26,316 nt of DNA from a virus. Both the position numbers and the translations under genes were made by a program. Shown here one piece after another: positions 448-24,054 of this stretch. The notes under the pieces were generated by a model. That model was not told the origin of the DNA. It saw only the letters and a program-made list of their open reading frames with translations, and ran no database searches. The DNA is taken from IMG/VR virus record IMGVR_UViG_3300042902_000075, positions 1-26,316 of that record, one strand, 5' to 3'. Numbering within the stretch: position 1 is the stretch's first letter; each line of letters begins with the position of its first letter.

Positions 448-476
448 AGGGCTAAGGCTTAAACAGCTTTAGCTCT
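448..476. terminator. Hairpin at the end of the lysis operon (possible terminator)
   Basis: Bases 448-458 can pair with 466-476 in an 11-bp stem with two wobble pairs and a 7-base loop; the endolysin stop codon (452-454) lies in the stem. No strong U-run follows on the minus strand, so it is not a classic intrinsic terminator. Its position between convergent operons, next to the second hairpin at 429-446, suggests a bidirectional or factor-assisted transcription end. Confidence 0.35.
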
Positions 477-862
477 TCTCTGCTTCTTGAATCTATGTGT
501 AGCCAAGATATATCTGTTTCAATGCCTTTAATTTTTGGGAACAATCTTTGATTTGAAACTATAAAATTTCTAACCTCATCAGCGGTGTATTGGCTAAAAA
601 CAGCGTCTATCGCTTTTCCGTATGAGTGCATACTTGTTAATGAGTAATCTGGGCTTTGAGGAGTTCTTAATCCGCTCCAATTTCTATCGCCTCCCCAATA
701 CCAATTATTAATCGTCATAGTTCCATGTGGAAAATTCTCTTTAATAGTGTCAATCGCTTCTATTACTCCACTATCGAAAATCTCCCATACTTTAGCATCT
801 CCCATTTTCTCATAATCTTCTTTGCTTACAAGTTCATAGGCTTTGAAATATTTTGATTTCAT
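452..862 (-). CDS. Endolysin, peptidase M15 family
   Basis: The 136-aa protein carries the zinc peptidase signature of the M15 (D-Ala-D-Ala carboxypeptidase / L-Ala-D-Glu endopeptidase) group: H79 in SMHSYGKAIDA, D86 six residues later, and H122 in SWLHID, with D117 as a candidate catalytic acid. Family knowledge predicts that it cuts peptide cross-links of peptidoglycan to release progeny. There is no signal peptide, which fits delivery through the holin encoded just upstream; the two genes overlap by 4 bases. It is the last gene of the leftward late operon. Length matches single-domain M15_3/M15_4 phage endolysins. The family is clear; the exact bond cleaved is not. Confidence 0.85.
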   Translation of the reverse strand: MKSKYFKAYELVSKEDYEKMGDAKVWEIFDSGVIEAIDTIKENFPHGTMTINNWYWGGDRNWSGLRTPQSPDYSLTSMHSYGKAIDAVFSQYTADEVRNFIVSNQRLFPKIKGIETDISWLHIDSRSREELKLFKP

Positions 863-5116: not shown

Positions 5117-5128
5117 TATTATAGCGTA
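5117..5128 (-). promoter_or_regulatory. Promoter, TACGCTATAAT type, for the fibre cluster
   Basis: On the minus strand the gap between two genes reads TTACGCTATAATATC, with the -10 TATAAT at 5123-5118 preceded by an A/T-rich run (AAAAAAAATAAAA). The -35 region (ACTGAA) is poor. The 11-mer TACGCTATAAT recurs at 22764-22774 and 24044-24054, always between genes. It would drive the 80-aa gene, the microprotein, the fibre and the LamG genes. Confidence 0.6.
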
Positions 5129-22748: not shown

Positions 22749-22792
22749 TTAACCCTTAACCAAATTATAGCGTAAATCGGTTAAGTGGTTAA
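22749..22792 (-). promoter_or_regulatory. Late/terminase promoter bracketed by four TTAACC hexamers
   Basis: Leftward: TTAACC (22792-22787, also serving as a -35), TTAACC (22784-22779), then TACGCTATAAT with the -10 at 22769-22764 and 17 bases of spacing. GGTTAA (22761-22756) and its partner (22754-22749) follow. The two pairs are in opposite orientation, so they form a symmetric operator covering the -35 and the predicted transcript start. The remaining 137 bases up to 22929 hold no gene; only weak pairing between poly-A and GCTTTT was seen near 22900-22925. Confidence 0.7.
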
Positions 22793-22929: not shown

Positions 22930-23484
22930 CTACCTCTTCCCTTTGCTCACATAATATTTATAATGTCTATCGAATGTTGAGTTGAACTTTTCTTTTATTA
23001 CTCTATCCGCTGTATCCATTCCCTCTTTGTTTACCATCGAAGTAGGGCTAATGACTGATATCTTTATTAGTGGGTATTGCTTATCGGTACTACGTCTAAA
23101 TACTTGTAGGCTTCCACTTGTCTTTGCCTTAGCTATGAACGCGCCCTTTACTGCTCCCTTACGTGATTGCTTCAACACCTTTGCTGATGTCTTGTAGTAT
23201 GTCTTAGCTCCCTTTGTCTTAGCTACCGACTGAGTAGCATTGAAGTGTATCAGTCCTATCGGTTGGCTCCTAACCTTTATGATTGATTCATCCCTGCCTT
23301 TGCTTGCCTTAGTGATTGTCATCTTCGGGTCTAAGTCCTGCTTTTTAATGTTATAGTATGCCCTTACTACTTTGCTCATCTCACTCTTAACAGTCTTTGC
23401 TGTGTCGTTCAGTGTACGTGTCAATGCCTTGTCGAATACATTAGGGTCTATATTAAATCCTGATGTATCTAATTCGATTGTCAT
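22930..23484 (-). CDS. Minor tail protein Z-like
   Basis: The 184-aa protein is basic. It carries the phage Z family pattern: an N-terminal helix with ALTRTLNDTAKTVKSEMSKV (residues 20-39) and YNIKKQDLDPKMTI, then strands (IIKVRSQPIGLIHF) and a second half with GAFIAKAKTSGSLQVFRRST. Lambda gpZ makes the tail competent to inject DNA. Here the gene is upstream of the terminase promoter instead of between FII and U. It overlaps the membrane zinc-ribbon gene by 4 bases. Confidence 0.7.
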   Translation of the reverse strand: MTIELDTSGFNIDPNVFDKALTRTLNDTAKTVKSEMSKVVRAYYNIKKQDLDPKMTITKASKGRDESIIKVRSQPIGLIHFNATQSVAKTKGAKTYYKTSAKVLKQSRKGAVKGAFIAKAKTSGSLQVFRRSTDKQYPLIKISVISPTSMVNKEGMDTADRVIKEKFNSTFDRHYKYYVSKGKR

Positions 23485-23720
23485 CTTATACCCTCAAACA
23501 ATATGCTTGATACTTTAGTGCTTCCACATCTAGTACAGCGCCACCCGCCTATTCTTATGCTGAGTAGTATCCAAACTATTATCCAAACGATAGAGCCTAC
23601 ACCCATGGAGAACAGTCCTAAGAATATAGTAATGAATAGATGTAACACGTGGTTAGTTGTGGGGCGTTCTAGTTTGCCGTTATCTCCGCATACTTTGCAT
23701 TTGCCGTGTATGTACTGCAT
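23481..23720 (-). CDS. Membrane zinc-ribbon protein with LITAF-like topology
   Basis: The 79-aa protein has CKVCG (C8, C11), a hydrophobic stretch (residues 25-58, HLFITIFLGLFSMGVGS and on), and WRCTRCGS (C62, C65). Two CxxC knuckles joined through a membrane-inserted segment recall the LITAF domain, in which they form one zinc ribbon at the membrane face. The ATG at 23720 shares a base with the upstream stop (TAATG), so it is preferred over the longer frame to 23786. Function is unknown; related small phage proteins exist. Confidence 0.6.
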   Translation of the reverse strand: MQYIHGKCKVCGDNGKLERPTTNHVLHLFITIFLGLFSMGVGSIVWIIVWILLSIRIGGWRCTRCGSTKVSSILFEGIR

Positions 23721-23878
23721 TACTTTATACCGTCCGATGTTTTTATGCCAAACAGCTTGAACACTCTTTGCATTATCGTTCCGCACTTATCGCACACTTC
23801 ATCACGATTACTGTCTGCCATTGGCTTCTCGATTACCGCTTCATTACCGCAGTTGTTACACTTGTAAGGATAAAGCAT
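23720..23878 (-). CDS. Small zinc-ribbon protein, FmdB/Com-like
   Basis: The 52-aa protein has YKCNNCGN (C7, C10) and VCDKCGT (C29, C32), a classic four-Cys zinc knuckle pair, and a basic, hydrophobic C terminus. FmdB-type proteins and the Mu phage regulator Com have this look; Com binds mRNA to expose a ribosome site. Here the gene lies just behind a leader whose ribosome site is hidden by pairing. It overlaps the 37-aa gene by 23 bases in another frame and the membrane zinc-ribbon gene by TAATG. An RNA-binding role is an inference from analogy only. Confidence 0.6.
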   Translation of the reverse strand: MLYPYKCNNCGNEAVIEKPMADSNRDEVCDKCGTIMQRVFKLFGIKTSDGIK

Positions 23879-23969
23879 CTCTAATCCTTTTAACTTCGTC
23901 TTTTGGCAAACAGTATATGCCTTTGCAACTTAACATCAACTTATTAAGTCTTTTGATTGTATCGTCCAT
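23856..23969 (-). CDS. 37-aa leader peptide gene
   Basis: ATG at 23969 follows the ribosome site AAAGGAC at a good distance, and the frame stops at 23856-23858 after overlapping the zinc-ribbon gene start. The peptide is basic and helical, with two Cys (MDDTIKRLNKLMLSCKGIYC at the start). The overlap implies that its translation controls that of the zinc-ribbon gene. Its ribosome site is part of the competing stems in the leader. No family was recognised. Confidence 0.5.
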   Translation of the reverse strand: MDDTIKRLNKLMLSCKGIYCLPKDEVKRIRDALSLQV

Positions 23970-23971
23970 TT

Positions 23972-24025
23972 TTCAGTCCTTTTGTTAACTTACTACAACC
24001 CGAAAAGGACGAACAAAACGGGCTG
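23972..24025 (-). promoter_or_regulatory. Leader with two competing stems, one hiding a ribosome site
   Basis: Stem B pairs GTCCTTTT (24010-24003) with AAAAGGAC (23983-23976), 8 perfect pairs, extended by 3 more past a single bulge; it buries the ribosome site of the 37-aa gene. Stem A pairs CAGCCCG (24025-24019) with CGGGTTG (24002-23996), 7 pairs with one wobble, and holds the 5' arm of stem B in its loop. The arms interleave, so the stems either exclude each other or form a pseudoknot. The transcript from the promoter at 24044-24049 would start just upstream. Confidence 0.5.
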
Positions 24026-24043
24026 ATATAAACTAACTCCCAT

Positions 24044-24054
24044 ATTATAGCGTA
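24044..24054 (-). promoter_or_regulatory. Promoter, TACGCTATAAT type, for the zinc-ribbon/Z unit
   Basis: The minus strand reads AATACGCTATAATATG, with -10 at 24049-24044; the 11-mer is identical to those at 5118-5128 and 22764-22774. The -35 region is poor. The start point would fall near 24037, leaving a leader of roughly 68 bases before the 37-aa gene. Confidence 0.6.

Follow-up and report, generated by a model that had tools for sequence, protein, structure and literature searches.

A conserved hairpin whose loop is complementary to the SD sequence in leaders of structural genes of otherwise unrelated phages

The late operon and its structured leader

The window, that is, the whole stretch of DNA analysed here, is the 26.3 kb (26,316 nt) IMG/VR virus record IMGVR_UViG_3300042902_000075. 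On its minus strand the promoter-like -10 region TACGCTATAAT (24054–24044) is followed, after a leader of ~73 nt, by a gene for a 37-aa protein of no known family (23856–23969). Three identical copies of TACGCTATAAT are present in the window (5118–5128, 22764–22774 and 24044–24054), all on the minus strand and each closely 5' of a gene, and a recognisable -35 hexamer accompanies one of the two copies scanned. These sites are probably phage late promoters of a Campylobacterota-like type, and the leader transcript probably starts at about 24043–24040. The end of the 37-aa gene overlaps the start of the next gene, which has its own Shine–Dalgarno (SD) sequence (AAAAGGA) and encodes a 52-aa zinc ribbon (23720–23878) that matches the FmdB-type family TIGR02605 (32.2 bits, cut-off 31.3) and, just under the cut-off, Pfam Zn_ribbon_8 (PF09723, 30.7 bits). 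It is followed by genes for a probable membrane protein of 79 aa that contains two CxxC pairs (23481–23720), the start of which overlaps the zinc ribbon stop, and for a minor tail protein Z/neck protein (22930–23484; PF06763, phrog_27). As read from the sequence, the reading frames in the operon overlap at 23878/23856, at 23720 (TAATG) and at 23484 (ATGA). Beyond the tail protein Z gene lie the second TACGCTATAAT copy and then terS, terL and the portal and capsid genes. Apparently terS begins with a TTG that overlaps the stop codon of an upstream frame of three codons, ATGGTTAATTGA, with an SD-like GAGG of its own (22764–22736, minus strand). A YopX-family gene (PF09643; 24390–24746, minus strand) is located upstream of the late operon.

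Two pairings had been named in the leader by the first-pass annotation, and both exist at the place given for them on the minus strand. The 7-pair stem joins CAGCCCG (24025–24019) to CGGGTTG (24002–23996), and the SD-hiding stem joins GTCCTTTT (24010–24003) to AAAAGGAC (23983–23976) through eight pairs that include the SD, the latter helix being extended inward by GUUG/UAAC. The 7-pair stem had been thought to trap the hiding strand; however, the strand that pairs with the SD is located in the loop of that stem, and the two helices can therefore coexist. A 10-bp lower helix (24037–24028 with 23993–23984), joined to the 7-pair stem via a 2x2 internal loop, had been missed. The whole hairpin in the leader of the 37-aa gene thus comprises 10 + 7 bp (17 bp) and occupies positions 24037–23984 of the minus strand. 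Its 5' half consists of the lower helix arm GUUAGUUUAU (24028–24037), found by RNAfold and corresponding to covarying columns 3–13 of the alignment described below, and of the upper helix (S1) arm CAGCCCG (24019–24025), supported by folding and covariation and replaced by other paired sequences in the relatives. The 16-nt apical loop UUUUGUUCGUCCUUUU (24003–24018) holds the complement of the SD strand; within it are the segment GUUCGUCC (24014–24007), invariant in 12/12 members, and the anti-SD strand (S2) GUCCUUUU (24010–24003), which is adjoined without a spacer by the 3' arm of S1, CGGGUUG (23996–24002). The 3' arm of the lower helix, GUAAGUUAAC (23984–23993), would become loop L3 in a pseudoknot state, and the SD strand (23976–23983), a perfect match to the loop over its eight pairs, lies directly 3' of the hairpin foot.

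The hairpin has a predicted stability of -15.3 kcal/mol (RNAfold; z = -5.2, with 0/1000 shuffles as stable), a value obtained for a stretch of bases picked to fit it; adding five more 5' bases gives z = -3.3. Judged from the window by itself, the fold of 95 nt of leader does not stand out (z = -0.8). When transcript prefixes were folded, the hairpin appeared once base 60 had been transcribed, and in pseudoknot-free folding a second fold, in which both the SD and the start codon are buried, was about equally stable from base 84 onward.

Relatives, covariation and distribution

The same architecture was found in 11 further IMG/VR phage contigs, giving 12 members with the window included. No match was returned by an exact pattern of the whole leader, nor by a pattern with S1 fixed, the latter because S1 varies. 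A pattern keeping only the -10 region, anti-SD and SD matched 11 contigs, but only L102 proved to be a true member, with a different stem; a second pattern yielded L117, L119, L120 and L121. Pattern matches without the hairpin (L113–L116, L118 and most of L133–L162) were rejected as chance, and the seeming loop match in L099 falls in a coding region. In L102, L117, L119 and L120 the gene behind the element encodes a tail assembly chaperone (PF21822 and phrog_1613 for the L119 protein). Since loop and SD are prescribed by both patterns, a separate search was performed with the chaperone protein alone; the element was located directly 5' of the chaperone gene in 10/10 relatives, six of them on contigs new to the patterns. 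In L121, which belongs to record G426, a promoter-like site, TATGCTATAAT, lies ahead of the element, and behind it come an 87-aa gene, terS and terL, an arrangement much as in the window. Ten of the 12 members belong to a single clade of chaperone genes, and the independent lineages number about three, namely the window, L121 and the chaperone clade. The element itself combines a covarying stem and the invariant loop segment with an SD close behind the hairpin foot and, 5–8 nt after the SD, a start codon that is ATG throughout the 12 members except for GTG in L121.

The stem is established. In the 12-member alignment 97% of the cells in its 17 pairs are paired, with 34 cells changed on both sides and 10 pairs displaying such double changes. 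The covariation score is 0.58, as against 0.27 +/- 0.03 for shuffled alignments (0/500 shuffles reach it), and pairing falls to 38–43% in a control with the partner slid. The 12-member alignment had been fitted to the model; MAFFT alone recovered the same helix, with 11/17 pairs doubly changed. A model constructed from the ten chaperone-gene copies only found L121 at 40.2 bits and the window at 27.6 bits (E 0.008), and these were its only matches in 168 kb. A lack of covariation or conservation in relatives had been named by the first-pass annotation as grounds for refuting its proposal; for the hairpin both were found, and loop–SD complementarity was present in every relative.

Several further features were observed in the carriers. 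In L122, L126, L127, L128, L130 and L131, of the chaperone clade, the element is separated from the end of the preceding gene by a small hairpin, commonly GAGC-UUCG-GCUC or a sequence like it, which is possibly a weak terminator. An SD of the form AAGGACGA, complementary to the hairpin loop, precedes several non-structural genes (L187 and L188 in G429, L185 and L186 in G424, L193 in G427), some of which are located behind a repeated promoter-like sequence, GGTTACAATTAGAAACTT. Second, weak model matches within the same phages were not convincing.

The carriers share no protein with the window except for one endolysin, found in G426 (82% identity; 452–862, minus strand, in the window and 4725–5159 in L191), and no other common protein was detectable between these two. 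Sharing of the endolysin fits a shared host range. The nearest TerL relatives of the window include a Sulfurospirillum MAG (65%) and its endolysin is nearest to that of Sulfurimonas phage SNW-1 (56%), affinities which suggest that the host is probably a Campylobacterota species. The sequence GCTATAAT is over-represented in the window and G426 but not in the chaperone-clade phages, whose TerL is nearest to that of a Vibrio phage; the latter phages therefore probably have other hosts.

Outside the 12 members the element was absent from 90 TerL-related and other loci, including TerL relatives at 63–65% identity. No close relatives of the tail protein Z, the zinc ribbon or the 37-aa protein were found in viral contigs or phages. 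Among 397 Campylobacterota genomes, blastn with the leader matched pieces of the promoter or SD only, and the element was not found among the matches listed in a covariance search with strict filters; a single weak covariance match in these genomes fell in a coding region and was rejected. Chaperone homologues of Pseudomonas and Dickeya Otagovirus phages have about 15 nt of intergenic sequence and no element.

Pairing of the loop with the SD and its possible meaning

Complementarity between loop and SD extends over 7–12 bp in all 12 members. Together with the loop lengths, it is compatible in each of them with a predicted H-type pseudoknot of two interleaved helices that would sequester the SD; in the window these are the 7-bp upper stem and the 8-bp loop–SD helix, the 10-bp lower helix excluding the latter. 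S2 adjoins the 3' arm of S1 with 0–1 nt between them in 11/12 members, which is the geometry of a coaxially stacked pseudoknot. Rough energies place the hairpin and the pseudoknot within about 3 kcal/mol of each other in most members, as calculated with a generic pseudoknot penalty of 9.6 kcal/mol in place of measured loop entropies. In L122, with a stem of 29 bp, the hairpin is estimated to be about 5 kcal/mol better than the pseudoknot.

Taken singly, the loop–SD match of the window is only mildly unusual (p about 0.02–0.03): eight Watson–Crick pairs arise with p 0.02 in shuffled loops, and 36% of shuffles reach eight when G-U pairs are allowed. Over the individual members p ranges from 0 to 0.08 for Watson–Crick pairs only and from 0 to 0.03 for duplex energy, with most of the chaperone clade at about 0.003 or less in the Watson–Crick test; shuffling of letters ignores kinship, so that these values are not independent of one another. 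When SDs were swapped among these related sequences, the match of each loop to its own SD was only slightly better (p 0.02). The observation becomes convincing through its conservation in relatives, not from the window by itself. Both strands of the second helix are almost invariant and display little true covariation; pairing is kept by a UUUA/UAAA change in L125 and by a G-U pair in L121, and is broken by a C-A mismatch in L127. The GUUCG of the loop is conserved even in two members, the window and L121, that match it only incompletely in the SD region, and pairing alone does not, therefore, explain the loop. The loop is under strong constraint. From the complementarity we infer that the loop–SD helix may form in cis; that it would lower translation, and that the two states would interconvert, is what the structural model predicts.

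We consider it rather probable that this conserved element acts in cis as a leader RNA in phage structural operons, where it restricts or switches translation of the gene that follows. During transcription the 5' hairpin would fold first and leave the SD free. Later, or under some condition, the loop strand GUCCUUUU could pair with the SD to give the H-type pseudoknot, in which the upper stem would be kept, the weak A/U-rich lower helix would open, its 3' strand would become loop L3 and the SD would be buried in the second helix. The conserved U-run before GUUCG would then sit in the deep groove beside the A-U pairs of the second helix, a placement that may resemble that in triplex-containing translational riboswitches such as SAM-V (PMC6061858). 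In the window the leader would determine how the 37-aa gene is translated; coupling at the overlapping frames might extend the effect to the genes for the zinc ribbon, the membrane protein and the tail protein.

Other explanations have to be weighed against this one. The hairpin might be a 5' stabiliser or processing signal, which guards the transcript against decay, or serves as an RNase III cleavage site, while the SD is kept single-stranded, the loop–SD match being secondary. Stems of 17–29 bp would suit such a role, as would the open state predicted for all members when the part preceding the SD is folded without pseudoknots, and the stem of the window is near the inferred 5' end with the SD free at its foot. 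A stabiliser, however, needs no fixed loop, whereas GUUCGUCC is identical in 12/12 members although the stem sequence drifts; loop–SD complementarity is found throughout, and in the chaperone clade the element is located between genes and at no known 5' end. We regard this explanation as unlikely, albeit worth keeping in mind. Considerably less probable is action of the loop in trans, in which the hairpin, intact or cleaved free, would pair with other phage SDs bearing AAGGACGA as an antisense RNA or sponge. A loop atop a 20-bp stem is suited to this, its own SD being hard to reach unless the lower stem opens, and the chaperone-clade phages do have further genes with such SDs, including RecT- and exonuclease-like ones; in G429, 7 of 36 AGGA-type SDs continue with CGA. 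Yet the excess is clear in G429 only, G423 and G431 having two each and the window and G426 none. We give equally little credence to the loop being the binding site of a host protein or the ribosome, with the bound protein rather than a pseudoknot controlling translation. Hairpins bound by proteins typically present an invariant sequence, as GUUCGUCC is here, on a stem that varies, and a host factor would fit the near absence of phage proteins common to the carriers, but there is no candidate protein and the loop–SD complementarity would be a coincidence.

Every inverted repeat in RNA exists in the DNA too, and an operator, a terminator or chance repeats must be considered. The orientation is nevertheless constant, the foot lies beside the SD, G-U pairs are tolerated on the RNA strand, no T-run follows the stem on either strand and the 90 other phage or related loci mentioned above lack the element, which makes a feature at the DNA level very improbable. 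The first-pass annotation had proposed a translational switch or self-regulated leader, controlled by the downstream zinc ribbon in the manner of phage Mu Com. Of this, the structured leader with alternative pairing of the ribosome site stands. As in Mu com/mom, there is a phage operon with a small four-Cys protein, encoded here by the second gene, and a ribosome site that would be masked; the protein family, RNA motif and gene arrangement, however, differ. The protein is of FmdB type, Mu-like Com being absent from its best 25 Pfam families at E <= 10, and no homologue was detectable in the other phages with the element. The motif CC(N)2-3GAG or GAG(N)2CC is found in the target hairpin of Com (PMC6483171); neither form is present in the leader studied here. 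Com-like autoregulation accordingly has next to nothing to recommend it.

Returning to the cis-acting leader, the small number of proteins common to the carriers makes a phage-encoded effector shared by all of them unlikely; any effector would have to be of the host, or the RNA would work by itself. Candidates for something that might shift the balance between the two states are a ligand, a host protein, the ribosome and temperature. It is possible, and we propose it tentatively, that the element represents a horizontally spread, undescribed class of phage translational switch, passing from hairpin to pseudoknot, which serves unrelated phages and different genes. Such a switch would adjust when, or in what amount, the late structural proteins are made, its cue being either a signal from the host or the state of the ribosome pool. 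Control by a mobile, family-forming leader RNA is known for few late genes of phages. The two-state anatomy, with a fixed loop on a drifting stem in phages sharing almost no proteins, makes the proposal testable by a simple reporter in a laboratory strain, and the 12-member set provides a covariance model with which further members can be sought and, via their genes, the signal.

Comparison with known RNA systems

The conserved element common to these otherwise unrelated phages is new to the Rfam catalogue. Apart from an unrelated tRNA, no family, including SAM-II, SAM-V and preQ1, reached its gathering threshold in the window or in eight relatives, the weak matches being mostly to miRNA models that fit any hairpin, and a literature search brought up no relevant paper with the loop sequence. 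The mRNA of phage lambda cIII adopts two competing structures, one translatable and the other hiding the ribosome site. Described in these general terms, the present element is likewise a phage leader with two competing folds, one of which would mask the ribosome site. To our knowledge, the cIII alternatives are not a loop–SD pseudoknot on a conserved loop. In phage T4, binding of gp32 to the leader of its own gene, gene 32, is nucleated by the leader pseudoknot. This leader is a phage mRNA pseudoknot tied to translational control (PMC535899, PMC3014915), and a pseudoknot is predicted in a phage mRNA leader here too; unlike in T4, no gp32-like protein is common to the carriers and the SD itself would be in the knot.

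In the SAM-II and SAM-V riboswitches the second helix holds the SD. The phage element differs from both in lacking an Rfam match, in residing in phage structural rather than methionine genes and in having an additional lower helix, which is long and incompatible with the SD helix, and no ligand is known for it. SAM-II and SAM-V are translational H-type pseudoknot riboswitches (PMC9373788, PMC6061858). The predicted closed state of the phage leader resembles them in that the SD would be in the second helix and that a U-rich first loop near A-U pairs would permit a major-groove triplex.
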